Below, piece by piece: positions 1 through 21,321 of a stretch of 23,112 bases of DNA. This DNA is from a virus. Location: positions 1-23,112 of IMG/VR virus record IMGVR_UViG_3300025153_000247; one strand, written 5' to 3'. The position numbers and the translations under genes are program-made. The notes beneath the pieces are model-generated. The model ran no database searches. It saw only the letters and a program-made list of their open reading frames with translations, and was not told the origin of the DNA. How positions within the stretch are numbered: the first letter of the stretch is position 1; every line of letters begins with the position of its first letter.

Positions 1-939
1 TCAAAGGCGGGCTGCGCCAGAGGAGAGGGTGGTGAGGAAATCCTGATAGGCGGCGGCGAGGCCGTCGCGGAAGCTGACGACAGGCGACCAGCCGCTGGAT
101 TTGATGAGTGAAATGTCTAAGAGCTTGCGCGGCGTTCCGTCCGGTTTGGTGGGATCGGTGAGGATCTCGCCCTTGAAGCCGACGGTCCCGGCGACGAGCG
201 AGGCGAGTTGCAAAATCGTCACGTCCTCGCCGACGCCGACGTTCACCCAGTCCGGCGGCGAATCGAGCGAGAGCAGATGGAAACAGGCGGCCGCGAGGTC
301 GTCCACATGCAGGAACTCGCGGCAGGGCGTACCGGTGCCCCAGATGGTAACGGTGGCCGCATTGCTTTCCTTCGCTTCGTGGAAACGCCGGATGAGCGCG
401 GGGATGACGTGCGAGTTTTCCGGGTGATAGTTGTCACCGGGGCCGTAGAGATTGGTCGGCATCGCACTGTGATAGGTGATGCCATGCTGGGCGCGGTAGT
501 GCTGGCAGAGTTTCAGCCCCGCGATTTTCGCGATGGCGTAGGCCTCGTTGGTGATCTCCAGCGGGCTGGTGAGAAGGCAGTCCTCCGGCATCGGCTGCGG
601 CGCCATTTTTGGATAGATGCACGATGAGCCGAGGAAAAGCACGCGCGGCACGTCCGCCCGGCGGCTGCCTTCGACGAGGTTCGCGGCGATGGTGAGGTTT
701 TCGTAGATGAAATCCGCCGGATACGTCGAGTTCGCGTGGATGCCGCCGACTTTGGCTGCGGCGATGATCACGATGTCCGGTTTCTCTTCAGCGAGGAAAT
801 CGAAAACGGCTTCCTGGCTCAGCAGATCGAGCTGGTCACGGGTGGCGGTGACGATCTGATAGCCGCCGAGTTTCGCGGCCTCGCGCATGAGCGCGGAGCC
901 GACCATGCCGCGGTGGCCTGCGATGAATAGTTTTTTCAT
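1..939 (-). CDS. fcl: GDP-L-fucose synthase (GDP-4-keto-6-deoxymannose epimerase/reductase)
   Basis: This enzyme makes GDP-L-fucose from GDP-4-keto-6-deoxy-D-mannose by 3,5-epimerisation and NADPH reduction, in the cytoplasm, for surface glycans. The 312-residue protein is a full-length extended short-chain dehydrogenase. The nucleotide-binding motif GHRGMVG lies at residues 8-14, the SSCIYPK active-site strand at about 105-111, and the catalytic pair Y134/K138 in [19 protein letters not shown] near the C-terminus is typical of the family. The stop codon occupies the first three bases of the window. The ATG at 939-937 is chosen because the protein then begins [11 protein letters not shown], and it overlaps the glf stop by four bases (ATGA), implying translational coupling. 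The open frame extends upstream of this ATG, but only as antisense or out-of-frame glf sequence. The assignment is very secure. Confidence 0.96.
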
Positions 940-2108
940 GAATTCGATCCGTATAGGGTGATGAGTTTGTCCGCTTCGGCAAGGGCCATGCCGGTCACCT
1001 GGTCCATGTTGTAGTAGCGGTAGGTGGCGAGCCGGCCGATGAAACTGGTGTTTTTCTCCATAGCTGCGAGGTACGCATATTGCTGATAGGCGGTGCGGGC
1101 GTGCGGGGCGGGGATGGGGTAAAATGGCTCGTCGTCCGGCGTCCAGTCTTTGGGAAACTCGCGGACGATGGTGGTCGCGTCGGTTTGCTGGCCGGTGGCG
1201 TGTTTGATTTCCACGATGCGCGTGAACGGCACGTCGGCACCCGGATAGTTCACCTGCATCGCGGGTTGCCAAAAACCGGGCTTTCCGGAAACCGCCTCGC
1301 GCTCGCGCAGTTGCTCGGATGAAAACGACTCGTGCTCGAAACGCAGCGATCGATAAGGAAGGGGACCGAAACGACGGTCATAGAACTCATCCACCGCGCC
1401 AGTGAAGATGAGGTGCTTGTGCTTCCAGCGCGCGCGGGCCTCCTTGAAATCGACGCCGAGGTGCAGCTCCACGCCGGGCGAGGCATTGAGCATGGTTTCA
1501 AACATCGCGGTGTAGCCGTGTTTCGGCAGCGCCTGGAAATTTTCCGATAGATAGCGGTTGTCGCGGTTCGTGCGGATCGGGATGCGGCCGCAGACGGAGG
1601 CGTCAAGTTCGCGCGGGTGGGCCTTCCATTGCTTGAGCGTGTAGCCTTTGAAAAACAGTTCGTAGAGCTCGCGGCCGACCTGCGAGATGATGACTTCCTC
1701 GGAGTTTTTCGGCTCCGCGATCGGGATCCGGTTCTGTCCCAGCCACGTGGTGAACTCGGCCTCTGTGGCTTCCCCGCCGATCAGCTCCTCGAACGTGTTC
1801 AGGTTGATCGGGAAACTCCAGTAGCGTCCGCGGGCGTGGCTTTTGATCGTGTAATCGACGGCATGCCACTCGGTGAAAGCGGATAGATAATCGACGATGC
1901 GCGGAGAGTTCGTCCGGAAATAGTGGGGGCCGTAGTGATGGACGCGCACGCCGGCCGTATCGATGCTGTCATGGGCATTTCCTCCCAGGTGGCTGCGTCG
2001 GTCCACGACCACGCACTTCCATCCGGCTGCGGACAGACGCTCGGCGATGACGAGGCCGGAGAAACCGGCGCCGATGATCAGGAAATCGGTGGAGGCGTCG
2101 GATTCCAA
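936..2108 (-). CDS. glf: UDP-galactopyranose mutase
   Basis: This flavoenzyme interconverts UDP-galactopyranose and UDP-galactofuranose, supplying galactofuranose for cell-surface polysaccharide. The 390-residue product has the usual length. An N-terminal FAD-binding Rossmann motif GAGFSG is at residues 13-18, followed by LGGNAHD (41-47) and the [11 protein letters not shown] signature near 57-67. The C-terminal [13 protein letters not shown] stretch is also typical. The start is uncertain: the first plausible codon is TTG at 2108-2106, giving [15 protein letters not shown]. No ATG or GTG in frame lies between the upstream gene and the FAD motif, and no Shine-Dalgarno is seen. The gene overlaps fcl by ATGA and sits about 200 bases downstream of the NusG paralog, consistent with one polysaccharide operon. 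Confidence 0.95.
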
Positions 2109-2309
2109 AGATGTCTGGGGGGAAGTGGCTGGACCGGCACGCTGCCGCCCGTGGTCGCTCCCGCCGTGATGGAGGGAAACCAGATGTGAGCAAACGTGCT
2201 TGTCGGGGAGGGCGTCATTTTTCGGGATTAACCCGGGCCATAGACGGCCATTGGCCTTGATAGATCAATCAGAAACGGGTCACGTGATCGCGTAGCAGGT
2301 GGGTGGAAG
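2109..2309. other. Spacer between NusG paralog and glf with two small palindromes
   Basis: This 201-base stretch has no convincing gene. It contains GGCCATTGGCC (2246-2256) immediately followed by TTGATAGATCAA (2257-2268), a 12-base imperfect palindrome with a 2-base centre, and CACGTG at 2281-2286. These could be protein-binding sites or part of the leader of the glf-fcl message. No hairpin followed by a T tract on the minus strand is evident, so transcription from the NusG-paralog gene may continue into glf. Confidence 0.35.
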
Positions 2310-2858
2310 TCACGGGGTCGGCCGCCTTGGGAGGAGGATCGAAAACAGATCCATGTCCACCGCCTGGGGCTGGCCGAGGAACTCGAGCAGGATCTTCACC
2401 CGTTCGGATGCGGAAGGAACGGCGACCACCGTGCCGCGCATGCCTTGGAGCGGGCCATGGGCGATTTCCACCTCGTCGCCGAGCTCGATAGTGGGGCTGA
2501 CGTTGAAAATTTCCTCGGTGGGTCCCTGACGCGAGCGGACTTCCTGTTTCAGAGTTTCCACAAACGAATCAGGCACGGCGGGAATGCCGGAACCGAAGCG
2601 CACCAGCCCGCGCACTCCCTGGCAGAAAGTGACGGCGCGCTCCATTTCGGCGATGCTGAACTTCGCCAGCACGTAGCCGGGGAAAAGCGGCTCCACCCAC
2701 CAGATCTTCCCGCGCCGCGTGGCCTTGCGGTAGCGCAGGCGGGGGCAGAAAACGTCAACTCCCTCGATGACTCGCAGGTGTTCGGCGGCGATGTGCTCGC
2801 GCTTCGTCTGGCAGCGGACGCAGAACCACTCGCGCAGGCTTGGATCTTTTTTGGTCAT
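2310..2858 (-). CDS. Specialised NusG paralog (RfaH/UpxY-like transcription antiterminator)
   Basis: The 182-residue protein has an N-terminal NGN domain (about residues 10-105, with WFCVRCQTKRE and EPLFPGYVLAKF) and a C-terminal KOW domain (about 124-160, ELGDEVEIAHGPLQGMRGTVV). It binds elongating RNA polymerase. Its position at the head of a sugar-nucleotide gene cluster, rather than in the secE-rplK locus, suggests an operon-specific elongation factor like RfaH or the UpxY proteins that drive capsule operons. The ATG at 2858 overlaps the stop of the upstream regulator by four bases. A housekeeping NusG is the alternative, but the neighbourhood argues against it. I saw no match to the enterobacterial ops element on the sense strand, so the recruitment site is unknown. 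Confidence 0.88.
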   Translation of the reverse strand: MTKKDPSLREWFCVRCQTKREHIAAEHLRVIEGVDVFCPRLRYRKATRRGKIWWVEPLFPGYVLAKFSIAEMERAVTFCQGVRGLVRFGSGIPAVPDSFVETLKQEVRSRQGPTEEIFNVSPTIELGDEVEIAHGPLQGMRGTVVAVPSASERVKILLEFLGQPQAVDMDLFSILLPRRPTP

Positions 2859-3358
2859 TGTCCGAGGATCTTTTGAAGGATGGGCAGCACCTTGCCGCTG
2901 CTCCGCATCCAGGTTTCGAGACGCTCGATGCGCTCGCCGAGAAATTCCCTGCGCGTGGCGTCGTCGATCTCCTGCGCGGTTTCCGCCAAGCGGCTGATCT
3001 TGGTTTTCCCGCTCTCCAGATGGGGGCGGACTTGCTCGCGGATGAAGCCGCCGACGAGGCGCTTGAGCTCGATGGCCGGCTCGTAATACGTCCGCCGCTC
3101 GGCTCCGGCCTCGGCTTCGCGCACCGCGCCAAGGCTCTTGAGCGCGCGCAGACCCTGGCTGGCGGAACCCTTGCTGATTCGCAGGCGCAGCACCAGATCG
3201 TCCAGCGAGAGGGGATTTTGGGAAATGAACAGCAGCCCGTAGATTTCCCCGATCGACCGGGGCAGCCCCAGCACCTTCACTCCATCGACGAATACCGCCA
3301 CGACCTGACGCTCCAGCGGGTCGAGTTCGTGTTGATCTCCGTCAAGAAGATGGGGCAT
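2855..3358 (-). CDS. GbsR/MarR-family winged-helix transcriptional regulator
   Basis: The product is about 167 residues. A winged-helix domain ([37 protein letters not shown], then [10 protein letters not shown]) is followed by a charged helical C-terminal region, as in GbsR-type MarR relatives that act as dimeric repressors. Two starts are possible: GTG at 3367 and ATG at 3358. I prefer the ATG because a sigma-70-like -10 box (TATAGT, 3371-3366) overlaps the GTG, which puts the expected transcription start at the ATG itself. The gene is translationally coupled (ATGA) to the NusG paralog and probably regulates itself through the inverted repeat just upstream. Its inducer is unknown. Confidence 0.85.
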
Positions 3359-3365
3359 GTGCCGC

Positions 3366-3393
3366 ACTATAAGGAAACGGGCCGGTTGTTCAA
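3366..3393 (-). promoter_or_regulatory. Predicted sigma-70-type promoter for the regulator operon
   Basis: Read on the minus strand, TTGAAC (3393-3388) and TATAGT (3371-3366) are separated by 16 bases. They match the -35 and -10 consensus at five of six positions each. The expected start point, about seven bases after the -10 box, falls at or next to the ATG at 3358, so the transcript would be nearly leaderless. The -35 box lies inside one arm of the adjacent inverted repeat. Confidence 0.5.
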
Positions 3394-3407
3394 ACTTTTT
3401 TGAACAA
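3386..3407. promoter_or_regulatory. Inverted-repeat operator candidate
   Basis: TTGTTCAAA (3386-3394) and TTTGAACAA (3399-3407) form a perfect 9-bp inverted repeat with a 4-base centre. It lies between the divergent regulator and UDP-xylose synthase genes and covers the predicted -35 box of the regulator promoter. Size and symmetry suit a dimeric MarR/GbsR repressor. The AT-rich arms make a transcription terminator unlikely. Confidence 0.55.
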
Positions 3408-3509
3408 ACCAGCCGGACGCGGTGGCGGGGTGGGTTTGGAAACGGTGGAATCTCATTTCCTGCCGATGAAATCTTGATTCGCGGTCCGGATGCTGCTGGG
3501 TTTCACGGC

Positions 3510-4445
3510 ATGCGCATCTTGATCACCGGCGGAGCGGGATTTCTGGGGTCCCACCTTTGTGAACGGCTTCTTCGGGAGGGCAACGAGGTGATCTGTCTCG
3601 ATAATTTCTACACCGGACGGAAGCGGAACATCGCCCACCTGCTGGAAAATCCCTACTTTGAGCTCGTCCGCCACGACGTCACCGAGCCTTTCAAATACGA
3701 GGTGGACCAAATTTACAACCTCGCCTGCCCGGCCTCGCCGCCGCACTACCAGCACAACCCGATCAAGACCACCAAGACTTCGGTCATGGGCGCGATCCAT
3801 TGCCTCGGGCTGGCGAAACGGCTTGGTGCACGCGTTTTCCAAGCCTCCACCTCCGAAGTTTACGGCGATCCGGACGTTCACCCGCAGCCGGAATCCTACT
3901 GGGGCAGCGTGAATCCGATCGGCATCCGCTCCTGCTATGACGAGGGAAAACGCTGCGCGGAAACCCTGTTTTTCGACTACCACCGTCAGAACAAGGTCGA
4001 TATCCGCGTCGTGCGGATTTTCAACACCTACGGCCCGCGCATGCTGCCGGACGACGGCCGTGTCGTTTCCAATTTCATCGTCCAGGCGCTCCAAGGCAAG
4101 GACCTCACCATCTACGGCGACGGCACCCAGACCCGCTCGTTCTGTTATGTGGACGACCTCATCGACGGCTTCATCCGACTGATGAACCATCCGTCACTGA
4201 CAGGCCCGGTCAACATCGGCAACCCCGGCGAGTTCACCATGCTCCAGCTTGCCGAACTCGTTTTGAAAAAAGTCGGAGGACCCTCCAAAATCACCCATCT
4301 GCCGCTTCCCGGTGATGATCCGAAGCAGCGCCGCCCGGACATCACGCTGGCCCGGAAAGAGCTCGGTTGGGAACCCGCGATCTCGCTCGACAAGGGTCTC
4401 GACTCGACGATCGGCTACTTCCGGAAGCTTCTCGCGGAAGGTTAA
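3510..4445 (+). CDS. uxs: UDP-glucuronate decarboxylase (UDP-xylose synthase)
   Basis: This enzyme converts UDP-glucuronic acid to UDP-xylose with bound NAD+. The 311-residue protein is a standard-length extended short-chain dehydrogenase: [10 protein letters not shown] at residues 7-16, D31 in [11 protein letters not shown] for NAD binding, STSEVYGDP at 113-121, and the catalytic YxxxK as RSCYDEGKR (Y143, K147), which is characteristic of UXS enzymes. FNTYGPRM follows at about 172-179. The ATG at 3510 gives the canonical [13 protein letters not shown] start; an in-frame extension to 3357 would cross the regulator promoter and is rejected. The gene diverges from the regulator operon and supplies a further precursor for surface polysaccharide. 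No clear Shine-Dalgarno is seen. Confidence 0.94.
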
Positions 4446-4512
4446 GCAGACACAATCGGGTTAATTCGTTTTTTGATAATCAGATGCAAAGGGGGGCGTA
4501 TCCGAGCGCCGA

Positions 4513-5435
4513 ATGCATCGCCTTGTTCTGTCGCTTTATTTGATTCTGGCCATTCTGCCTGCCCGTGCCGACGAGCGCGCGCTGGCGGTTTCATGGATCT
4601 GGAAAAGTACACCGCCAGGTGCGACCGAGCGCGTGTTTTTCCGCCGCGAGTTCCAACTTCCTCCGGATGTCGCCAGCGCGGTCGTCACCGTGTCTTGCGA
4701 CAACTGGCAACGTCTGTTTGTGAACGGTCACGACATGGGCAAGGGCACTGATTGGCACAGCCCCAGCACCTACAACGTGCTGGCGCAGCTCAAGCCCGGC
4801 ACCCGCAACGTGATCGCGGTGGAAGGTCGCAACGAGGGCGGAGTCGCGGGTATGGCGCTCAGTTTCCGCGCGACCTTGAAGGATGGGAAAAAACTGCACG
4901 TCGCCTCCGATGGAAACTGGCTGTGTGAAAACGAAGCTCCCGAAGGTTGGCAGGACCTTGATTTTCCATCCACCTCGTGGGCAAAAGCTGTGGTGCTTGC
5001 GAAAGTGGGGGATCCGCCGTGGGGCGATGTCATGAAATTGGAATCCTCCGAGCCGGCTGCCGTGCAGGACAAGAGCGGCTCCTTTAGTCTGGCGCCTGTT
5101 ACCGACACCGAGGAAGCACACGTCAAACTCCCGGCCGCGCCGCCAACATCGCCGACACCATCCTCGATCCCAGCAAGGTGATTTCCAACCTATACGCCTT
5201 CGACCAGATCAGCCGCAAGGATGGTACCGACATCAGTGGCAAGATCATCGAGCAGAAGGATGAAAAATGGATCGTCGCTACCAATCCCTTCGACCGCAGT
5301 CAGACCATCGAGATCGAGCGCAACGACTTCAAGGGCATGAAACCCTCACCCGTTTCCCCGATGCCGCCCGCCCTCATCAACCGCCTCAATCCAGAGGAAC
5401 TCAAGGACCTGCTGGCTTACCTGCTGGGAAAATGA
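4513..5435 (+). pseudogene. Internally deleted PVC-type haem-binding domain protein
   Basis: The first part (4513-5135) encodes a signal peptide (MHRLVLSLYLILAILPARA) and an N-terminal sugar-binding-like beta domain with CDNWQRLFVNG, ending at HVKLPA. In full-length family members that stretch is normally followed by a long propeller and HEAT-repeat region and a CxxCH cytochrome motif. From about 5136 the reading frame shifts. The remaining sequence (NIADTILDPSKVISNLYAFD onward to NPEELKDLLAYLLGK) is the extreme C-terminus of the same family. The middle of the gene, including CxxCH, is absent, so haem attachment is lost. The frame break coincides with the junction at CCGGCC, as expected for one deletion. 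The upstream frame would end in a nonsense tail at 5181. I infer a decayed gene; full-length relatives usually approach 1000 residues. Confidence 0.8.
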
Positions 5436-6763: not shown

Positions 6764-7447
6764 TTAGCCGATGCTGCAATTGTCCTGCAAGCCCGCCGCA
6801 GCCGCGTAAACGATCCGGATCCCGGCCGCTCGGGCGGGGTGCAGCGCCGAGGATGGCCCATCGGCCGCCACGATCACCCTCGCCGTGAGCAGCCGCTTCC
6901 AATCCGAAAGATAGTCCAGTATCCCCGCCCGGTCCCGCTCTAAGTCCGCGCTCAGGGCGGCCGACTTCGGCAGCATGTAACCCACCTCCAGCGCATCCAG
7001 CACGCGCCGGATCTCAGCTCTCCGCGAGTCCGCGAACACGAATACCGGCGCTCCCAACGGCGCGTGATAGGCCGCCATCATGGCCAGCCGCCAGGCATCG
7101 GCCGCCGGGTTGCGGTGGAATCTCGCCGCCAGTGCCACCGTGCAGCCTGGCTGCGGAGTTCCTGCCATCGCCTGCATGATCCGGGCGTAGGCGGCATCAG
7201 CGGTCGCACGCTCGCCCGCCGCGTCCCAGCGCTCACAGCCCAGCCCGTCCCATACCGTCGCAGGCCACGGCACCGCGCCTGGCGTGAATTCCACCCCGTC
7301 GATCCCCTCCGGGAAAACTTCCCGCCAATCCACCGGGCAATGCTCATTCACGAACCAGGGAAATTCCACCGCCGCAGCCCGGCTCAATCCGTTCGCCAGC
7401 GCCGCCACCCGGTTGCCCAGGCCTTCGTTGCAATGCACCGCGCTCAT
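6764..7447 (-). CDS. Putative glycosyltransferase, NodZ/O-fucosyltransferase-like
   Basis: The 227-residue product begins MSAVHCNEGLGNRVAALANG. The GLGNR motif followed by an alanine-rich helix is typical of GT-B fucosyltransferase-like enzymes (NodZ and relatives). A strand PVFVFADSRRAEIRRVL and the segment VIVAADGPSSALHPAR match the region where these enzymes hold the nucleotide-sugar. The ATG at 7447 overlaps the stop of the upstream gene (ATGA); the longer open frame to 7507 would run into that gene. It is the last phage gene before the boundary. It may glycosylate a virion protein or a host surface glycan. Similarity rests on a few motifs, so the sugar and even the family are uncertain; the protein is also shorter than most GT-B enzymes. 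Confidence 0.6.
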   Translation of the reverse strand: MSAVHCNEGLGNRVAALANGLSRAAAVEFPWFVNEHCPVDWREVFPEGIDGVEFTPGAVPWPATVWDGLGCERWDAAGERATADAAYARIMQAMAGTPQPGCTVALAARFHRNPAADAWRLAMMAAYHAPLGAPVFVFADSRRAEIRRVLDALEVGYMLPKSAALSADLERDRAGILDYLSDWKRLLTARVIVAADGPSSALHPARAAGIRIVYAAAAGLQDNCSIG

Positions 7448-8019
7448 TTGTCGCGCGGCATTACCCTCACTCTCGCCATCGGTGGTGGTCGGTGCACAGC
7501 ATTCCATGCTGCCGAGGTGGCTCCCAAATGGCGGAGGTTTGGAAGAGGCTCCGCGTAGGTGCCGCCGAGATCTATTTTTTGGAGATGGATTGCGGCTTTG
7601 AACAGTGCCGCTTCGTCGTCCGCTTTGTCCCGCTGGAGAGTATACCGCGTGCTCCAGGCCTCGCAGAGCTGCCGTGCCGTCGCTAGATCCCCGGCGACGA
7701 CGACCGTGGACGCCATAAATACCATCGCGTCAAATGGAGGCGGAAAAAAGCCAGTGATCCGCGCCGCGATCTGGCCGGGCTCCAGCGCCGGTGGCGGCAC
7801 GAATGGCCCGGTCGCGAGGCAGTCGCAATCCAAAAACATAACCGGGCCGGGGATGTCCTCCGCGAACTCTCCGAAGCGGGTTTTCAGCCGCTGCCCGCAC
7901 TCGCCCGCCCGCCCCGCGATGATCCGTAACGGTGGCCAGCCGTGCTCGGCCATTGACTCGGCCATCGCCCGCGCCATACCGAGGTGCCGTTCGCCTGTCG
8001 CGGCGGTTAGGATTTGCAT
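7444..8019 (-). CDS. Putative GT-A-fold glycosyltransferase (GT8-like)
   Basis: The 191-residue protein starts MQILTAATGERHLGMARAM, like small nucleotide-diphospho-sugar transferases. VMFLDCDCLATGPF carries a DxD motif (DCD) after a hydrophobic strand, the metal and sugar-nucleotide site of GT-A enzymes. A later DDEAALFKAA segment resembles the acceptor-side acidic motif. The start is either GTG at 8028, four residues' worth from the preceding stop, or ATG at 8019. The ATG is preferred because GTCGGTG lies a suitable distance upstream. The gene follows the baseplate hub with only a few bases between and overlaps the next glycosyltransferase by ATGA, so the pair forms a two-gene glycosylation cassette. 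The substrate is unknown. Confidence 0.65.
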   Translation of the reverse strand: MQILTAATGERHLGMARAMAESMAEHGWPPLRIIAGRAGECGQRLKTRFGEFAEDIPGPVMFLDCDCLATGPFVPPPALEPGQIAARITGFFPPPFDAMVFMASTVVVAGDLATARQLCEAWSTRYTLQRDKADDEAALFKAAIHLQKIDLGGTYAEPLPNLRHLGATSAAWNAVHRPPPMARVRVMPRDK

Positions 8020-8032
8020 GTTAAACACCGAC

Positions 8033-10390
8033 TTACGGCGGAGTCACGTAATCCGGGCCGCCCACCTCCGGATGCACCCAGCTCACTCTGACGATTGTTA
8101 CATCCTCATCTGCCGGGTAGCCATCCGGTTTAGTGTCAAGGTGAGCGACGCCTCGTAGGAAATAAATTTTATTTATGGGTTCCAGATCGGCCTCGTATTT
8201 GACGGCACCCTCCTCGCCTGGGCCGCCGCCGTAGCTGGCGATGCCCCCGTTCCAGACCTCCAGGATGAACGTGTCCCCACGGGGCTGCGCGACGTGGAAG
8301 ATCGGCCCACCGCTCTGGAACGGCTTGGCCACCAAATCGTCACCCACCATTTCGAACTCCGCGATTTTGTAGTAGAATTCCCCATCTAATGCATCAGATC
8401 CCGGCTTGTTAAATTTCGAAACTTTACCCTTCACGTCTTTTTCGATCGTGACCGCGGTCGGAACACCGTGTGTTTCGGTCACCACCTTGCAGAACAGCGC
8501 GTCAGCCACGGTCACAGAGTGAGTCGGAGCCGGGGAGTCCTCCATGCCAGTGGGCATCCAGTATTTCGAGACCGGGGAGGCATCCTTTTTTGGGTTGAGA
8601 AAATGCACGTAGCCCGGCTTCACCGTCGCCTTCCAGGCCCCTTCAACCTTTGCCAGCGTCGTCGCAAATTGGGAATTATCCTCCACCGGCGGCGAGTCGA
8701 AGGTCGTCTCCGGCACATCGTAGGGCGTGATCGTGTCCCCTTGCGCGCTGGGCTTTTGGTCAGCGCCAAGCCGATTAGACTTCCGTTCCCCTATACTCCA
8801 CCACGTCGCGGGCCGGAATCTCAGTATCCGCTGAAGCTCGATGAAATCCTGCGGTGCCAAGTGCGGTGCCGGTCCGAAGCTGATGGTGATCTTCCCGCTA
8901 TCCACGTCCCAGTCCGTCGAGTGTACCGCCGCTATCATGGTTGCCCACTCGGCATCGCCGCCTGTCAGATTTACTTTGTTGCCCAGGAATGGCAGCGCTG
9001 GCAGATTCTTCGCCGTGATGGTTACACTACCTTGATAGAGGATACCGTTGAGGATTGCATCATACACGTCTTGCGCCACTCCGCTCGGCACGTCATCTGC
9101 GGCCACCCATTGGCTGATCCCCTTGTAGGTTTTCGTGATCGCGTTCGTCGCCACCACGGTGAGGCCGCAGTTTCCATCCTTGTCTTTCGGCACGCTGTCA
9201 AAGTCCTTTTTCTGGGCGGCGGATGGTGGAGTGGCCCCAGGGGTGAGCAGCAGGTTGAATTTGAGGTGGACCTTTCCGACCTTGCGCCGCATCCACTCGG
9301 CCACGTTCCCGCGCACGAGCTCGTTGGGCAGATGCGCCAGAGTCGTCCCCTTGAGCCGTGATGCTTGGCCGCTGATTTGGGGTGCTTGCTCCTCCTCGTC
9401 AGTGATGACTTTCCTGACGAGGCCTGTCGCCGCCCATCCCGCATCCGGGAGGCTGGCGAGCTGGGGAAATTTCAGCTTCAGATAGTCATGTAATTCCTCG
9501 TTCGTCGCCGGCAGTTTCCGCGCCTGCACCTGGCTTTTTTGAATCTGCATGCTCATGCCTGCTAGCGGAATCGTCGCTTGGATCAGCCGCGGGCCGCCGT
9601 CCGGAGCACCGGCCGGATATTTGTCGATTTTCACGTTGCGATAGACCTCGTCTTCGATGGTCGTCGCGAATTCGTAAATTACCCGCACGCCGCTCGGGAT
9701 CAGGTCGTCCCGCTTCACGCATTCGAAGCTTTCCACTTCCACGCTGCCGTCCACTGGGAAGGATCTCGGCGTCATTTCCGCCACCGGCGTCACATTGATG
9801 GTCGGCGTGGCCGTCGCGTGGTCGATCCACGGTATCCAGTCCGGATGCAGCTTCAGCACCGTCTGGATCAGCTCCGCACACATCTGGTTTTCGATCTCCG
9901 CCGGAATCATCAGCTCGCCTGTTGGGAAGCTGCCGAGCTGGAGGTTCACGCCCTGGCCGATGGCATACGTCAGGATGTTTTTCACCTGCGCGCCCACCGT
10001 GATTCGTTCATAGTCCGCGCCAATCAGGCCGAGTCCCAGCACCGCACGCGGCAGCATCACGCTGCTGGTGCCCAGTCCCCATGTCTCCTGATAGACCGTC
10101 GTTTCCAGCTGCGCCCATGCATCTTCGATTACATATTGATGCCCCTCGGAAGCACCGTCGCCATGCTTCGGCACAGAGGTGACCTGGCCGGTGAAATACG
10201 GGATCGTGACCCCGTCTTCCACCCGGCTCAGCGTCACGGGCTCGCGCTCTGTGAAGAGCTGGGCAGCATCGAAGTCACAGCCGAGTTCCAGGGTGACGGA
10301 ACTCACCGCCTGCACCCGCATGCTGCACGCCACCACGGACAGACCAAGGTCCTCCAATTTCACCCCGTTGATTTTCCAGTTCACTGCCAT
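8033..10390 (-). CDS. Large baseplate/tail hub protein
   Basis: The 785-residue protein is encoded two bases after the tape measure, the standard place for tail-tip proteins. The N-terminal 110 residues (MAVNWKINGVKLEDLG, then EPVTLSR, PYFTGQVTSV and YVIEDAWAQLE) resemble the hub domains of gp27/gpD-type proteins that cap the tail tube. The middle (about 230-500) is a mixed region including the VRVIYEF and VNLTGGDAEWATM strands. The C-terminal third carries acidic, fibre-like beta segments (YGGGPGEEGAVKYEADLEP), and the protein ends HPEVGGPDYVTPP. No lysozyme or peptidase motif was recognised. The length suggests a fusion of hub and receptor-proximal domains. The role is assigned from position and N-terminal pattern, not from a strong motif. 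Confidence 0.7.
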   Translation of the reverse strand: MAVNWKINGVKLEDLGLSVVACSMRVQAVSSVTLELGCDFDAAQLFTEREPVTLSRVEDGVTIPYFTGQVTSVPKHGDGASEGHQYVIEDAWAQLETTVYQETWGLGTSSVMLPRAVLGLGLIGADYERITVGAQVKNILTYAIGQGVNLQLGSFPTGELMIPAEIENQMCAELIQTVLKLHPDWIPWIDHATATPTINVTPVAEMTPRSFPVDGSVEVESFECVKRDDLIPSGVRVIYEFATTIEDEVYRNVKIDKYPAGAPDGGPRLIQATIPLAGMSMQIQKSQVQARKLPATNEELHDYLKLKFPQLASLPDAGWAATGLVRKVITDEEEQAPQISGQASRLKGTTLAHLPNELVRGNVAEWMRRKVGKVHLKFNLLLTPGATPPSAAQKKDFDSVPKDKDGNCGLTVVATNAITKTYKGISQWVAADDVPSGVAQDVYDAILNGILYQGSVTITAKNLPALPFLGNKVNLTGGDAEWATMIAAVHSTDWDVDSGKITISFGPAPHLAPQDFIELQRILRFRPATWWSIGERKSNRLGADQKPSAQGDTITPYDVPETTFDSPPVEDNSQFATTLAKVEGAWKATVKPGYVHFLNPKKDASPVSKYWMPTGMEDSPAPTHSVTVADALFCKVVTETHGVPTAVTIEKDVKGKVSKFNKPGSDALDGEFYYKIAEFEMVGDDLVAKPFQSGGPIFHVAQPRGDTFILEVWNGGIASYGGGPGEEGAVKYEADLEPINKIYFLRGVAHLDTKPDGYPADEDVTIVRVSWVHPEVGGPDYVTPP

Positions 10391-10392
10391 GA

Positions 10393-12207
10393 TTACCGTC
10401 CGTTCCGGTTGTTTTTGATCTGCCCCTTGATGACCTCGATCTGCTTTGCCTGCCCGTCCAGAGAGGAGAGCAGTTTTTGCAGCGCCGCCACCATGGACGC
10501 GCCGAGTTCACCTTGCTTTTCCTTCACCAGATCGCCGAGCTTTTGAATCTCCGCCGCATTGGTCCCATCCGATAGCTCCTTGCCGATTTTCGCGAGAGTT
10601 TCGTTGCCGCTCTTGAGCCCCTGGTTCCGGGCCTGGAGTCCGCCCTGCCTGGCATTTGCATTCAGCCCGGACTCAGCTGCATCCCTCTTGTTTTCCAGAT
10701 CTTCACCACGCCCCTTCCGCTTTTCATCATCGGCTTTTTTGTCCTCGTCTAGTTTTTTAGCCGCTTTTTCAGCCTCCGCCTTCCTCACTGCGGCGTCGGT
10801 TGTCACACTCCTGGCATCGCGGCCGGATGCATATTGTTGGATGATCGCGGGGGCTTGGATATTCTGGATTTCCTCCGCTTTTCGGCCTGCGTCCCGAGCG
10901 CTCCGCGCCCGGTCCTCCGCTTCCTTTTTCTTCGCGGCGGCGGCGGCTTGGGTTTCGCTGGCGCGCTTGATTTCATCTTCGATATCACCGCCGGATAGCC
11001 TCGCCCGATCGGCTGTCGTCACTGAGTTGGATTTCGCTTCGGTAGCCTCGCGCTGTTTCTTCAAACCCTCATACTGAGCCTTGAGTTTCGCTTGATCTTC
11101 TGGGCTGTAGCGTTCGCTCGCCGCCGCGAATTGGATCGTCCGAGCGTCATTTTCAGCGGCCACCTGAACAGGTAAGGCTTCCTTAGCCTTGTCCGCAGCC
11201 GCTACGTTTCTTGTGAGTTCCACTTTCTCCGTTTCCAGTGCACGTTTCCGAGAGCTGGCGGCCACTTCATCTTCTTTGGCGCGGAGTCCGTCCTCCATGG
11301 CCAGATCCTGCTTCTGTTTCTCGGTTCGCCTCTTGTCCGCTAGATCATCCAGTTTTTCTTGAGCCTGCGCTTTTATATCATCCTCCCGGATGGCGGCGGT
11401 TTCGCGAATTTTGTCGGCGTCGCTCTTTTTGGGGTCGGCTTGGATCTTCGCGATTTCAGCTTCGCGTTGCGCGGAATCCACACCAAGCTGAGCGGTGCGT
11501 CGCAGAGTTAGAAGCTCCACATTCCGTGTCAGAATCACGTTTTGGTCTCGGTAGGCCTGATCCTCGTCATCGAGCGCATCCAGCCACTCCTGTAATTCCG
11601 CAGCCGACTTTCGAGCCGCGATCTCGCCGGCGGCCTCTTGCAGTTTTTTGAGTTTGGGTGCTGCATCATCCGCCTTATCACCGGCGGATTCCGCCGCGTC
11701 TCCCATTTTGAAGAGCGCACCAGCGAGCGGAAACGCAATCGCCGAAATCGTGCCGAGCAAGATCCCCCAGGGTCCAAATCCGCTCAATAGTTGAGGTGCC
11801 TGCTGGCCGAGGGATACCATCGCCGATGTTCCGGCTCCGATCTGCACTGCCACGTCTTGCACTTGGTATCCGACATTCCTCCAGCCGGTGCCCATTTGCA
11901 CTCCGGCTTGCGTTATCTTTGTCGCCGCCGCCGCTGCCGCCGCTGCCGATCTCTCGATTCTGACCTGCGCCGCCTCTTCCATCGCGGCCGCATTGTGAGC
12001 AAGCACGGCCATCCGTGCCGCCTCTTGTTCCGCCCTGTATGACGCGCCGGGATCGTCAAAGCGGACGCCTTTCGTTCGATCTTCCATCTGCTGTTGCAGC
12101 GTCTTGTGCGCCTCAACCGCCGCCTCCGCTGGTTTCCGCACTTCCGCTGCCGCCTGGTCACCGCCAGTCGCCAAGATCTTGATCTCGATGTTTTTTCCTT
12201 CCGCCAT
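10393..12207 (-). CDS. Tail tape measure protein
   Basis: The 604-residue protein is alanine-, lysine- and glutamate-rich. After a helical N-terminus, residues 101-166 hold the lambda-GpH-like element VGYQVQDVAVQIGAGTSAMV, then GQQAPQLLSGFGPWG and a hydrophobic hairpin (about 148-166). From about 184 almost to the end it is predicted coiled coil with repeated KKxEAEDRAR-type segments. This fits a tape measure that sets tail length and passes through the tube during DNA ejection. At roughly 1.5 angstrom per residue it would specify a tail of about 90 nm, suggesting a siphovirus-like or modest contractile tail. The stop is two bases before the hub gene's ATG. The start ATG at 12207 has no clear Shine-Dalgarno. 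Confidence 0.88.
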   Translation of the reverse strand: MAEGKNIEIKILATGGDQAAAEVRKPAEAAVEAHKTLQQQMEDRTKGVRFDDPGASYRAEQEAARMAVLAHNAAAMEEAAQVRIERSAAAAAAAATKITQAGVQMGTGWRNVGYQVQDVAVQIGAGTSAMVSLGQQAPQLLSGFGPWGILLGTISAIAFPLAGALFKMGDAAESAGDKADDAAPKLKKLQEAAGEIAARKSAAELQEWLDALDDEDQAYRDQNVILTRNVELLTLRRTAQLGVDSAQREAEIAKIQADPKKSDADKIRETAAIREDDIKAQAQEKLDDLADKRRTEKQKQDLAMEDGLRAKEDEVAASSRKRALETEKVELTRNVAAADKAKEALPVQVAAENDARTIQFAAASERYSPEDQAKLKAQYEGLKKQREATEAKSNSVTTADRARLSGGDIEDEIKRASETQAAAAAKKKEAEDRARSARDAGRKAEEIQNIQAPAIIQQYASGRDARSVTTDAAVRKAEAEKAAKKLDEDKKADDEKRKGRGEDLENKRDAAESGLNANARQGGLQARNQGLKSGNETLAKIGKELSDGTNAAEIQKLGDLVKEKQGELGASMVAALQKLLSSLDGQAKQIEVIKGQIKNNRNGR

Positions 12208-12278: not shown

Positions 12279-12614
12279 TTACTTTCTCAATGCCGCCACT
12301 GCCGCTTTGATCTTGGCGACGTTTTCGGTGCCCAGCGCGGCGGCAATATCCGCTGCCGAAATGGCCGGAGTTACCACGTTGCCTTTGGCGTCCTTGCGTT
12401 CGGGTTGCCCTTTTTCCAGCATTTCTGAGACACGATAGACCGTGTTGTTGATCTGCGAGACGATTTGATCGGCCACCTGCACCGGGGCTTGCTTTGCCGC
12501 CGACGCGGCGGGCAGCTCAAGGACCGGTTCGGGGCGTGTTGGCGGAGTCGCCGGGCCTTGTGCGAAAGCAAGCGGGGCGGCGAGGATGGCGAATAGTGTA
12601 ATAAGTGTTTTCAT
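12279..12614 (-). CDS. Small exported protein of unknown function
   Basis: The 111-residue product has a clear Sec signal peptide (MKTLITLFAILAAPLAFA, probable cleavage after AFA), then a proline-rich linker (QGPATPPTRPEPVLELP) and a helical domain (VADQIVSQINNTVYRVSEML and ISAADIAAALGTENVAKIKA). No known family was recognised. It lies between the exported repeat protein and the tape measure, in the same direction, with an A/C-rich leader (ACCAAACCAAAT) instead of a Shine-Dalgarno. A secreted product inside a tail operon is unexpected. It might be a chaperone or partner for the neighbouring exported repeat protein, or a lysis-related periplasmic factor; neither can be shown here. Confidence 0.7.
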   Translation of the reverse strand: MKTLITLFAILAAPLAFAQGPATPPTRPEPVLELPAASAAKQAPVQVADQIVSQINNTVYRVSEMLEKGQPERKDAKGNVVTPAISAADIAAALGTENVAKIKAAVAALRK

Positions 12615-12662
12615 ATCAGTATTTGGTTTGGTTTCTCAGAGGCGATTAGTTAGGGATGATGA

Positions 12663-14207
12663 TTAGAGCCCGTTGATCGTTTCACCGACCGTGGCAGACC
12701 ATCGGATTTCGGTAGCTGCTGTGCCAGTTGCCATTAGGGTGATGAGATTGGTTGATGGCGTGATGGCGAGGGTGTAGGCGGCATTACCGACAAGCGGCTC
12801 AATGGCGTTGGTAGCGGCGATGGTGACTGCCCCCGAATCATCAACCGTGAGCGTCACGGCCCTGTGGATGCGGGCAAAATCGCTGCCATCGGCTTTACGG
12901 GCGAGCATTACAATGTCCAGATGGGCGATGCATGAGCTGGGGAGCACATAAGGCGATCCGTCTTGGAGTCCCAGCGCAAGCGGTGTGTCGTCGGTAGTGG
13001 TCCCGCCCACCGTCGCGATTTGGCGGCCTGAGTTGCTGTTGTAGCCTGCATGAGCGTGGGAGTAGCTGAGTCGCGCGGTGGCCCCGCTGTCGGCGTGGCC
13101 GCTAGTGGCGTTGTTGATACCGCTGCTGTCAGCGTGGCCGTATTGGCCGGAGTTGATACCGCTGCTGTCAGCATGGCCTTGGTAGCCGGAGTTTTGACCT
13201 ACGCTATCGGCGTGGCCTTGTTCGGCGGTGTTGGTGGCGTTGCTGTCAGCATGGCCGCGTAAGCCGCTGTTTTGACCTACGCTGTCGGCGTGGCCTTGTT
13301 CGGCGGTGTTGGTGCCGAGGCTATCAGCATGGCCTTGATAACCAGAGTTTGTGCCGTAGCTATCAGCGTGGCCGTATTGGCCGGAGTTGTTACCGGTGCT
13401 GTCGGCGTGACCTTGGCTGCCGGAGTTTTGACCGAGGCTATCAGCATGTCCGTAGGTGCCGGAGTTGTTACCGGTGCTATCGGCGTGGCCATAGGTGCCG
13501 GAGTTGTTGCCGTTGCTGTCCGCGTGGCCTTGATCGGCAGTGTTGATACCGTAGCTATCGGCATGGCCGCTGGCGGCGGAGTTTTGACCGGTGCTGTCGG
13601 CGTGGCCTTGGTAGCCGGAGTTTTGACCTACGCTATCGGCGTGGCCGTTGGCACCGGAGTTGATGCCGGCGCTGTCGGCGTGCCCGCCATTACCGGAGTT
13701 GATGCCGACGCTGTCGGCGTGGCCGTTGGTGCCGGAGTTGATGGAGCCGCTATCGGCGTGTGCGTCATCGGCAGTGTTGGTGCCGGAGCTATCGGCGTGG
13801 CCGCGTAAGCCGGAGTTGGTGCCGGTGCTGTCGTGCCAGCCTAACGTGTCCCAGCCGTGCAGTCCGTTGGACAATGATCCGGTGCCATCACCGGGGATGG
13901 AGTCGGTGGGAGTGAGGAGAGACGTGGCCGACACGTTTGCGACAAGGCTTGTTTTGTTGACCGGCGTTAGCACCCCGTCAGCGTCCCACGCCATCACGTA
14001 GTCATTGCCGGGGGCGGGCATGGTGAAAATACTGGCCCCCGTTTCGGTGGCACCGATCGCGGTGCGAAAGGCTGACTGGTTTGAAATGCCCGCGCCGTTA
14101 CCCGAGACGGTGCCGCCAGTGGAGGCACCGGGGGCGGGAGGCGCTGCGCACAATGGCAGCGAGGCGGCGAGGAGCGAGAGGAGCGAGAGGAGGATGATGT
14201 GTTTCAT
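12663..14207 (-). CDS. Exported fibre-like protein with twenty 13-residue HADS repeats
   Basis: The 514-residue protein starts with a signal peptide (MKHIILLSLLSLLAASLPLC, then AAPPAPG). Residues 25-124 form a glycine/serine-rich N-terminal region with SAFRTAIGA, a phrase common in phage tail-fibre proteins. Residues 125-384 consist of twenty 13-residue units of the form HADSxGxNSGxxG. Residues 392-514 form a beta-rich C-terminal domain (VTLTVDDSGAVTIAATNA to WSATVGETING). The repeats recall the SHAEG-type beta-roll repeats of phage fibres and trimeric autotransporter heads but have a different spacing. A beta-solenoid stalk or adhesin is inferred. The position between tail tube and tape measure suggests a virion part, while the signal peptide suggests export; both cannot be simply true. 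Confidence 0.75.
   Translation of the reverse strand: MKHIILLSLLSLLAASLPLCAAPPAPGASTGGTVSGNGAGISNQSAFRTAIGATETGASIFTMPAPGNDYVMAWDADGVLTPVNKTSLVANVSATSLLTPTDSIPGDGTGSLSNGLHGWDTLGWHDSTGTNSGLRGHADSSGTNTADDAHADSGSINSGTNGHADSVGINSGNGGHADSAGINSGANGHADSVGQNSGYQGHADSTGQNSAASGHADSYGINTADQGHADSNGNNSGTYGHADSTGNNSGTYGHADSLGQNSGSQGHADSTGNNSGQYGHADSYGTNSGYQGHADSLGTNTAEQGHADSVGQNSGLRGHADSNATNTAEQGHADSVGQNSGYQGHADSSGINSGQYGHADSSGINNATSGHADSGATARLSYSHAHAGYNSNSGRQIATVGGTTTDDTPLALGLQDGSPYVLPSSCIAHLDIVMLARKADGSDFARIHRAVTLTVDDSGAVTIAATNAIEPLVGNAAYTLAITPSTNLITLMATGTAATEIRWSATVGETINGL
13056..13835 (-). repeat. In-frame 39-bp tandem repeat array (20 units)
   Basis: Twenty consecutive 39-bp units encode H-A-D-S-x-G-x-N-(S/T)-(G/A)-x-x-G. 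The first unit begins at the histidine codon at 13835-13833 (as HDS) and the last fully counted one ends at 13056, where it is already degenerate. HADS and the asparagine are nearly constant. Positions 5, 7, 11 and 12 vary. Units are very similar in DNA, so slippage or recombination could change the copy number. This is coding sequence, not a CRISPR array. Confidence 0.92.
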
Positions 14208-14231
14208 GGTGATTTCGATAGGTTGGAAATT

Positions 14232-14915
14232 TCAGGGAAGAGGATGGAAAGTGATCTGTTCGGATCCAGCCGCGCCGGTCAGACGCAAGACTTGATAGAT
14301 TGACTGCGTATTGTTCCAGAAAGCGGCCTCGAATCCTCCGGATCCGTCCGGAACAACCTGGAAACCCGAATCGACGGTAGGACCGGTCGGCAGGTACCGC
14401 GCGTCCGCCTGTTCCAGCGTGATTAACGTGCCGGGGTTCTCAGGTGGCGGATCTTCGGCGACGTTGTTGTCCTCGTGCAGGAAAAAGTTACCCGCCGCCA
14501 GCGTGACCTCTTTGCCGGAAATCATGATCGCCGTCGCCACCAGCCAGAGTGTGCGGCGGGCACCTTGCGGATCGAGGTTCATTTCCGCATTTGAGAAATC
14601 AAAGGCCGCATGCGCCTTCGTGCCATCCGCCCAGGTCTCCGCGTCCAGCGTGAGGTCCAGATCCTCGGCGGCGATGGTTTGGTCTGCCAGAGTGCCGCTG
14701 GTGGTCTGCGAGGGTTGCAGCTTGAGGTTGATGCTCTGGACGTTGGATAGATCGTAAAGCTCGCCCTGCGGCGTGAAGAATCCGAACTCGAAGCGGGTGG
14801 CATTCCCGCGCACGGTCTCCGGCGTCTGCGAGGTGCGCTGATCTTGTAAGGTGGCGGGGAACGGGCTGCCGATGGCGGATGCGCAGCGGACAAGACGGTT
14901 AGATAGGAGTGGCAT
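14232..14915 (-). CDS. Tail/baseplate protein, BppU-like N-terminus with fibre motif
   Basis: The 227-residue protein has an N-terminal beta domain (RGNATRFEFGFFTPQGELYD, then LSNVQSINLKLQP) of the kind found at the start of upper baseplate and fibre-anchoring proteins. Next comes a proline-rich linker (EDPPPENPG) and the phrase LITLEQADARYLPTG, a very common hinge in tail fibres. A short C-terminal beta domain (VVPDGSGGFEAAFWNNTQSI) follows. It probably anchors or forms part of the receptor-binding apparatus. It lies directly upstream, in transcription order, of the exported repeat protein, with 24 bases between them. Family membership is inferred from pattern only. Confidence 0.6.
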   Translation of the reverse strand: MPLLSNRLVRCASAIGSPFPATLQDQRTSQTPETVRGNATRFEFGFFTPQGELYDLSNVQSINLKLQPSQTTSGTLADQTIAAEDLDLTLDAETWADGTKAHAAFDFSNAEMNLDPQGARRTLWLVATAIMISGKEVTLAAGNFFLHEDNNVAEDPPPENPGTLITLEQADARYLPTGPTVDSGFQVVPDGSGGFEAAFWNNTQSIYQVLRLTGAAGSEQITFHPLP

Positions 14916-15496: not shown

Positions 15497-16429
15497 TCAA
15501 GCGGTCACCGCGATGCTGAAAAGCGGATCCAGTGCCCCGGCCGTCACTGTCCGCGTCGCAATCCACTCGCACGAGCCGAGACGTTTCTTATCCGAGCTGT
15601 AGGCGAACTGGGCATCTGCCAGTGAGGCGTTCTTCACCGTCGCCGTGACAGCGGCGGATGCGATCACCAGATCCGCACCACCGGCCGCGAGTGAGCTGCC
15701 CAGCGCCACGGCCGGCATCAGCTTCGCCATCGCCTGTGCCATCGTCGGGCCGACCGGGATCGCCTTCGCGGAAACATCCAGCCCTTGCAAGCTCATGTCC
15801 ACCGTGCCGAGGCCGTCCACTTCCTGTTCTTTCAGCTTGAGCGAAAATGCGATTTCCCAGCCCGCTTCCGTCTGGAACGAGCTCCACGGTGCCGATCCGC
15901 CCCAAACCGTGGTGAAGGCACTGGTCGGGATATCGCTAACGGCGAATCCCGCATCCCCCGGATAGGCGGCGGCGGCGATGGTGTAATACGCAGCCGCATT
16001 CGCCGGATCGGTGGACTTTGCGAGCAGGCCGGTGAATTTTACGTTGCCGGAAATCGTCTTGCTCACCCCGAGGCGCAGATTCGGCATCTGGGTGAGAGAG
16101 GCGTTGTGGATCGTTAGTTTCACGCCGTCCACACCCCACACCACCAGCGCACGATCCGCCGCACCGTAGATGCTCGTGCCGATGTTCGTGCCCGCGTAGG
16201 GCCAGAGCACTGCCGCAAGACCGGCGGTGAACCGGCCTTCCGGCTCGAAGGTCACCTCGATCATCCTGCTGGAAAACCGCTCGTCCACTTTTCCAAAGCG
16301 GGAGGTCTCCACCGGGAAGCGCTTGTTTTTCGGCGCGACCGTTACGTCGCCCTTGCTCCAGAAGGATTGGCCGGCGAACTGCACGATGCAGGGTCCGGTG
16401 ATGATGGTGGTTCTGTCGATGCCTGGCAT
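15497..16429 (-). CDS. Tail tube (major tail) protein
   Basis: The 310-residue protein begins MPGIDRTTIITGPCIVQFAG and is rich in beta strands and small residues, as tail tube proteins are: VTVAPKNKRFPVETSRFGKV, RMIEVTFEPEG, then KTISGNVKFTGL, IAFSLKLKEQEVDGLGTVDM and SCEWIATRTVTAGALDPLFS. It lies right after the tail-completion-like genes, the usual site of the major tail protein. The substrate is the growing tail, where it would polymerise as hexameric rings around the tape measure. No contractile sheath gene is visible nearby, which favours a non-contractile tail. The assignment rests on position, size and general pattern. Confidence 0.65.
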   Translation of the reverse strand: MPGIDRTTIITGPCIVQFAGQSFWSKGDVTVAPKNKRFPVETSRFGKVDERFSSRMIEVTFEPEGRFTAGLAAVLWPYAGTNIGTSIYGAADRALVVWGVDGVKLTIHNASLTQMPNLRLGVSKTISGNVKFTGLLAKSTDPANAAAYYTIAAAAYPGDAGFAVSDIPTSAFTTVWGGSAPWSSFQTEAGWEIAFSLKLKEQEVDGLGTVDMSLQGLDVSAKAIPVGPTMAQAMAKLMPAVALGSSLAAGGADLVIASAAVTATVKNASLADAQFAYSSDKKRLGSCEWIATRTVTAGALDPLFSIAVTA

Positions 16430-16514: not shown

Positions 16515-17222
16515 TCATGCGGTTGCTTTGAATTGCAGCACGTCCCCCGGATTCAGCCCGGCCTTGAACGCCGCCGTCCTAACCACCGTCCCGGCAGGCA
16601 GAGTGATCGGCACCGTGTAGCCGATGGTGCCCGCGCCGCCCTGCGTCGGGAAGCTGCCGTCCGTCGTGTAGTAGATGGTCGCTCCCACCGTGCCGCACGT
16701 CAGGACGTATTTCCCGGACACCACGGACGCCTGCACGCCCAGCGGCTTCACCGCCGGATCCAGGCCGATCTCGAAAACATTCAGTGTGACCAGGTAGGAC
16801 ACATAGCCCTTCTTCACCTTCATCTTCTTCGCCGGGTCTTTCTCCGCGTAAAGGATCACATCCCCTAACGATTGCCGGTGCAGGGCACCGATCACGCGCA
16901 GAGCGCCCTTCGCCGCGCTGATGCCGGTGCCACTCTTCACATCCCGGTTCATCAGCACCTGCTCGATGACTTGGATCTCGATCTGAAAATTCATCACTGG
17001 CCCCGGCAGGTTCTTTTCCGCACTCACCACTTCCGGCGCGAAGATGACGACGGCCAGACCGATCTTCCCCTTAGGGTCGATCAGCGTTTGCAGTTTCCGC
17101 TGCACTTCCGTCTCGATGTCCCCCTCGTCATCCCGCAGGACGGTCACGGTGGACAGCGACGGCACGCCGCCCAGGAGCGAGAACACGTCGGCATGCAGCC
17201 GGTCGATGATTCCATCGTTCAT
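16515..17222 (-). CDS. Tail-completion-like protein with C-terminal chitobiase-C/FN3-type domain
   Basis: The 235-residue protein has two parts. Residues 1-150 (SLSTVTVLRDDEGDIETEVQ, LAVVIFAPEV, MNFQIEIQVIEQ and GYVSYLVTLNVFE) resemble tail-terminator or gpU-type proteins that cap the tail tube. Residues about 158-235 match the chitobiase/beta-hexosaminidase C-terminal type domain: VSGKYVLTCGTVGATIYYTT, then DGSFPT, VPITLPAGTVVRTAAF and KAGLNPGDV. That immunoglobulin-like module is common in extracellular enzymes and is presumably displayed on the virion. The ATG overlaps the previous gene's stop (ATGA). The domain at the C-terminus is more certain than the function of the first part. Confidence 0.65.
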   Translation of the reverse strand: MNDGIIDRLHADVFSLLGGVPSLSTVTVLRDDEGDIETEVQRKLQTLIDPKGKIGLAVVIFAPEVVSAEKNLPGPVMNFQIEIQVIEQVLMNRDVKSGTGISAAKGALRVIGALHRQSLGDVILYAEKDPAKKMKVKKGYVSYLVTLNVFEIGLDPAVKPLGVQASVVSGKYVLTCGTVGATIYYTTDGSFPTQGGAGTIGYTVPITLPAGTVVRTAAFKAGLNPGDVLQFKATA

Positions 17223-20814: not shown

Positions 20815-21321
20815 TTATGGGTTGACGGTGGGGAACCGTGGGATCACCGCCACTTGCTCACCGTCCGCAGCGGCGGAGCAGTAAGGAGCCGTCTTGCCTA
20901 CCCAGAAAGCGCCGGAGACCACCGCATCGGTGATCTTGCCGCCCGCCGTGGCATAGACGTTGGTGTTTTCCGCAATGGCCTTGCTGGCGATCATCTTCAC
21001 CGTACCACGAATGGCACCGAGGAGATGAAATGCCGCATAGTCACCGCTTGCCGGTTCATCGGCACATGGTCCCAGCGGGATGAGTGATGCCGTGCAGAGG
21101 ATGGCGGAGCCGGAGGCCGTGCCCTTCGCTCCCAGCAGGTAGCGGGTGGCGAAGGCGGCTTCGGTGATCAGAGTCACCTTACCATCTTCCAGCAGCTTGT
21201 CCGTCGCGCTATTCGTCGCCACGCCCTTGAGTTTCAAGCTCCACTCCCGCGCCATGACAGCGAGGACCGGAAGCACCAATAGGAGTGCCAGGATTACCCC
21301 GGCGATCAGTTGTAGTTTCAT
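20815..21321 (-). CDS. DUF2190-like capsid cement/decoration protein with N-terminal signal-like segment
   Basis: The 168-residue protein has a hydrophobic start, MKLQLIAGVILALLLVLPVL followed by AVMA, then a typical small beta-rich DUF2190-like cement domain (LLEDGKVTLITEAAFATRYL, AGDYAAFHLLGAIRGTVKM-like strands, ENTNVYATAGGKITDAVVSG, VWVGKTAPY-like end). Decoration proteins bind the assembled capsid. A second in-frame ATG (MAREWSLKLKG, at 21255) would give a protein without the hydrophobic part. The upstream ATG has a leader very similar to that of the nested scaffold start in the protease gene, which supports its use. A signal peptide on a capsid decoration protein is unusual. Confidence 0.7.
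   Translation of the reverse strand: MKLQLIAGVILALLLVLPVLAVMAREWSLKLKGVATNSATDKLLEDGKVTLITEAAFATRYLLGAKGTASGSAILCTASLIPLGPCADEPASGDYAAFHLLGAIRGTVKMIASKAIAENTNVYATAGGKITDAVVSGAFWVGKTAPYCSAAADGEQVAVIPRFPTVNP

Follow-up and report, generated by a model that had tools for sequence, protein, structure and literature searches.

The window analyzed here is the whole 23,112-nucleotide stretch of an IMG/VR virus record, and one minus-strand ORF within its same-strand tail operon (ATG start, 514 aa) encodes a protein with a long array of HADS repeats. This HADS protein is probably a tail fiber or tail spike, likely homotrimeric, of a temperate tailed phage with a probable Verrucomicrobiota host, and HADS rungs would build its stalk, with a tip at the C-terminus. 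Both are variants of fiber parts known from other phages. The secretion signal at the front is unusual for a tail fiber. The features of the locus are collected in Table 1, where uncultured viral contigs used for comparison carry numbers beginning with L.

Table 1. Features of the HADS locus, with positions in the window.
Feature	Position	Strand	Basis
HADS-repeat fiber gene	12663..14207	-	ORF with ATG start
Signal peptide, residues 1-21 (MKHIILLSLLSLLAASLPLCA)	14145..14207	-	Inspection and heuristic score 4.02
N-terminal region, residues 22-123 (AFRTAIGATETGA...YVMAWDADGVLTP)	13839..14144	-	Without database match
Array, 20 thirteen-residue units, residues 124-382	13062..13838	-	Unit count; predicted two-strand-per-turn solenoid
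Fiber C-terminal domain, residues 389-507 (TTDDTP...TGTAATEIRWSATV)	12687..13043	-	HMM 29.0 bits, i-E 3.8e-7
Upstream partner, possible fiber adaptor, ends in fiber-like stretch (LITLEQADARYLPT...)	14232..14915	-	Variable slot
Small 111-aa protein with predicted signal peptide, between fiber and tape measure genes	12279..12614	-	Heuristic
Tail tape measure protein, conserved module	10393..12207	-	PHROG_1538, E 1.4e-8; homologues in L110, L112-L115

The array has 19 perfect HADS units, each exactly 13 residues from the next, together with a degenerate first unit, HDST, at residue 125. The initial annotation had described 20 HADS units in one uninterrupted array, and this description is borne out in strict 13-residue register. 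The unit consensus given there, HADSxGxNSGxxG, stands in essence and is slightly corrected to G-H-A-D-S-x-G-x-N-[ST]-[GA]-x-x. Three-unit HA[D/E] patterns with 39-nt spacing occur 17 times in the DNA of the array (0 expected from 100 dinucleotide shuffles). The G-H-A-D codons differ almost only at the third position (CAC/CAT, GCC/GCT/GCG, and GAC/GAT), and in the codons of H-A-D-S the first two positions are invariant throughout. Selection therefore holds a protein motif, and not merely a DNA repeat. The length of the array could probably change through the gain or loss of 39-nt units. With a period of 13 and no Pfam match, the array is distinct from pentapeptide and hexapeptide solenoids, as previously noted. 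A Peptidase_G2-type fiber was rejected, as no C-terminal autoproteolytic Peptidase_G2 domain is matched in Pfam at E values up to 1.

Database searches with the whole HADS protein return no match in phages, viral contigs, Pfam, PHROGs, or PDB. Matches to Cupriavidus plasmids (23-24% identity) were judged to be low-complexity, and a two-unit GHADS search yields chance ORFs only (L179-L181). Two AlphaFold models of the array (pLDDT 73 and 80) form a solenoid in which each 13-residue turn has two short strands, supporting the earlier solenoid reading as a prediction. Foldseek matches the repeat-only model to no solved structure in the PDB (best E 6.5). In a longer construct, a beta domain is predicted after the solenoid. 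Phage tailspikes are the top PDB matches of this model, and an LbR_YadA-like phage protein (E 1.3e-10) is among its top viral structural matches, with low TM-scores (0.2-0.3) and with part of the signal supplied by the C-terminal domain. The modeled HADS array may have the geometry of YadA heads, a left-handed roll with two strands per turn, and its His and Asp residues could conceivably form a ladder.

Relatives of the repeat were sought with a DNA pattern of three HA[D/E] units 13 residues apart. This pattern matches 86 viral contigs, the majority of which encode fibers with HAEG arrays. Turns of 13 and 14 residues are found within one HAEG array, and the spacings number 246 of 13 versus 448 of 14 in this set, which was selected for 13-residue turns. 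The 13-residue turn had been thought to set the window array apart, and this is not supported, as such turns are frequent in the HAEG arrays of other phage fibers.

Two contigs, L089 and L091, encode pure 13-residue HADS arrays. Their profile scores 264 bits against the window array, where the best of 1000 column-permuted controls reaches 127. Against a HAEG 13-mer profile, the L091 array reaches 98 bits (best of 1000 permuted versions, 44). HAEG arrays match the Pfam family YadA_head (PF05658) in eight of nine cases, with a best E of 3.6e-10, and they match the solved YadA-type heads 7o23 (E 1.2e-27) and 1p9h (E 1e-6). Since the window links to L089 and L091, L091 to HAEG, and HAEG to the YadA head, the HADS array is a variant form of HAEG, a repeat that is common among the fibers of uncultured phages, and is connected to it through the L089 and L091 intermediates. 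Direct comparison of the window array with HAEG is weak, with 14-22 of 1000 permutations scoring equally high. The alignment of HADS and HAEG profiles by hhalign lends no support (probability 2%), and neither the window protein nor its array profile directly matches PF05658 or solved YadA heads. A literature search on the SHAEG motif returned unrelated papers only.

It is highly improbable that the array represents a new beta-solenoid class that has a stacked His/Asp ladder and no relation to the YadA head. The register is purely 13 residues over 20 units, the L089 and L091 arrays are also pure 13-mers where HAEG is mostly 14, and no Pfam, PHROG, or PDB entry is matched directly, all of which would suit a separate class. 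The stepping-stone sequence link through L089 and L091 to HAEG arrays and YadA heads argues against it, as does the mixing of 13- and 14-residue turns within single HAEG arrays. The proposal of a new class in the initial annotation is therefore not upheld in the form given, owing to this link. As a variant of the HAEG/YadA type, the HADS repeat shows that such a stalk can adopt a 13-residue turn throughout, and its regularity offers a test of how turn length sets the geometry of the roll.

The C-terminal domain ties the protein to other phage fibers. An HMM built from 48 domains of viral contigs, with the window left out, finds residues 389-507 of 514 at 29.0 bits, against at most 12.5 bits in 5000 shuffles. 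L091 has a C-terminus similar to that of the window, and there too the domain comes after a HADS array. In L055, L076, and L107 it comes after HAEG arrays, and elsewhere it closes fibers with collagen-like (L153) and YadA-like (L165, L143, and L146) stalks, among others. The motif VTGxAGxTIxWxA is found in 63 viral contigs. No Pfam or PHROG family matches the domain above cut-offs, and in annotated phages there is no match beyond one chance hit.

As an observation in its own right, this unnamed domain of approximately 120 residues (TTDATP...VTGxAGxTIxWxA) recurs behind stalks of many kinds in uncultured viral contigs (L117-L177). It is a widely shared fiber tip, and its description would aid the annotation of many uncultured phages.

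The gene is flanked by a phage head and tail module that includes a Mu-like protease, a capsid protein, a tail tube protein (15497-16429), the tape measure, and a tail protein of 785 aa; the capsid and tail tube are labeled from position and conservation, without a family match. L110 and L112-L116 have conserved counterparts of these genes, the tail tube, tape measure, 785-aa tail protein, and further tail genes among them. The HADS gene, its upstream partner, and the 111-aa gene are not conserved in these contigs, where other proteins fill the slot. A slot that differs between relatives while the tail module stays conserved is the behavior expected of a receptor-binding slot. The location in a tail operon and the fiber-like role that had been suggested are supported, and the mid-operon place of the gene between tail genes favors a fiber carried by the virion. 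The upstream partner, which we take to be a possible fiber adaptor, has no homologue in related contigs and no Pfam or PHROG match; its Tachylectin-like matches (best E 1e-3) are too weak to use. The 111-aa protein has a weak match to PHROG_1288 (E 2e-4), a PHROG of unknown function. Among annotated phages, relatives of the 785-aa tail protein are found only in two Akkermansia phages, and these relatives are the sole basis on which the host is probably a member of the Verrucomicrobiota.

Several other genes of the record and its relatives are worth noting. An odd fusion is found in a conserved tail-module protein (16515-17222), whose C-terminal end is a chitobiase C-terminal-like domain (PF13290, E 1e-12). 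The gene at 6764-7507 could pass for a host glycan gene. Its homologue in L112 (50% identity) immediately follows the homologue of the 785-aa tail protein, so 6764-7507 is phage cargo. In a decoration-like capsid protein (20815-21321), a hydrophobic extension at the N-terminus precedes a second ATG (MAREWS), and the start is uncertain. Positions 1-5435 are a host-like flank adjoining the prophage, with UDP-galactopyranose mutase, sugar epimerases, and NusG-like and MarR-type regulators. Within it, two overlapping ORFs (4513-5435) resemble the ends of one larger host protein with the middle missing, a sugar-binding N-terminus and a cytochrome-like C-terminus. In L091, the terminase ORF (615-4007) seems to hold an intein.

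By inspection and by a simple heuristic, the HADS protein has a predicted Sec signal peptide at its N-terminus, MKHIILLSLLSLLAASLPLCA/AP, so the signal peptide called earlier is supported as a prediction. This signal is at odds with the cytoplasmic assembly of tailed phages and counts against a fiber. The same heuristic also scores the 111-aa neighbor as having a signal peptide. Among the relatives, signal-peptide-like N-termini are found on a fiber of L110 (~12625-14457), on two fiber-like proteins of L116 (~7910-9217 and 9214-9963), and on a small protein of L115 (13152-13496) positioned as the 111-aa protein is in the window. Signal peptides in related phages also sit on fiber-like genes with unrelated bodies. 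None of 95 other fibers with a HAEG/HADS stalk or the C-terminal domain, and with complete 5' ends, reaches the same level in this small sample scored by a simple heuristic. Phage DGR target proteins are described as being without signal peptides, unlike surface-displayed bacterial ones (PMC6199706).

An ordinary cytoplasmic tail fiber, with an N-terminal hydrophobic stretch unused for export, is a doubtful alternative, though the least so of those considered. It is in keeping with a signal peptide call that is heuristic and with a start site and export that are predicted. It has to contend with the first ATG after the hydrophobic stretch, which is residue 63, leaving no earlier start between that stretch and the fiber body, and with the recurrence of similar N-termini in L110, L115, and L116.

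The protein could also be a lysogenic-conversion adhesin, produced by the prophage, exported by Sec, and then displayed on the host cell or released from it, built of borrowed fiber parts and not borne on the virion. This is unlikely. The signal peptide, the adjoining second gene with one (12279-12614), the zero count among 95 other fibers of these kinds, and the host surface-polysaccharide genes next to the prophage all speak for such an adhesin. Against it, the HADS protein sequence shows no outer-membrane anchor, lipobox, or autotransporter barrel, its C-terminal domain is a phage-fiber domain, and its gene is mid-operon, flanked by tail genes. In addition, the signal peptides on fiber-like genes with unrelated bodies in related phages point away from it. 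A type Vc trimeric autotransporter adhesin was rejected separately; the Sec signal peptide of that class is found by heuristic and inspection, Pfam gives no match to a membrane-anchor barrel, and the C-terminus is a phage fiber domain.

For the preferred tail fiber or spike, export is possibly a lineage trait of these phages, judging by sequence. Signal peptides on fiber-like proteins of the window, L110, and L116 (where two genes have one), versus none of the 95 other fibers, suggest a broader but improbable proposal. Here a tailed-phage lineage, probably of Verrucomicrobiota, would routinely place Sec signal peptides on its tail fibers, which would be exported, fold outside the cytoplasm, and then either join tails at lysis or serve as lysogen adhesins. 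If the signal peptides are used, tailed-phage fibers with an extracytoplasmic stage would be unexpected and directly testable.

From these parts we infer how the fiber would work. The signal peptide would take the protein into the periplasm; folding may occur there, with attachment to tails following at lysis. The N-terminal ~100 residues, where the region of residues 22-123 reads like a fiber protein, would attach the protein to the tail, directly or via the upstream partner. Residues 124-382 would be the stalk, a relative of the HAEG/YadA-head roll in which beta turns of 13 residues are stacked. The C-terminal beta domain common to many phage fibers likely nucleates trimerization and/or touches the receptor.

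The closest known systems share parts of this plan. HAEG fibers, e.g., those of L107, L027, and L045, have a tandem array in a phage fiber with the register S/G-H-A-D/E-S/G-x-G-x-x-x-G-x-x, as in the window, and those of L055, L076, and L107 have a related C-terminal domain. The window differs in having D-S in place of E-G, G in place of S before H, and N in place of A, and its array is purely 13-residue whereas HAEG is mainly 14-residue. The HADS fibers of L089 and L091 have the 13-mer register of the window, and L091 also has its type of C-terminal domain. Their unit is S-HADS-x-G-x-A-S-G, compared to G-HADS-x-G-x-N-S-G in the window, and their phage backbones differ. The L089 fiber starts without a signal peptide, unlike the predicted one in the window, and the N-terminus of L091 is cut off. 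The heads of the trimeric autotransporters YadA, BpaC, and UspA1 (1p9h, 7o23, and 3ntn) have a repeat related to that of the window via HAEG arrays. They have 14 residues per turn compared to 13 and no direct sequence match to the window protein, which is without a membrane-anchor domain and ends in a phage fiber domain. A marine phage tail fiber with a C-terminal YadA domain has been described (PMC3909814). Its phage group and fiber architecture differ from those of the window, and a signal peptide goes unmentioned in the passages on it. Like the HADS protein as proposed here, it uses a YadA-type module in a phage fiber.
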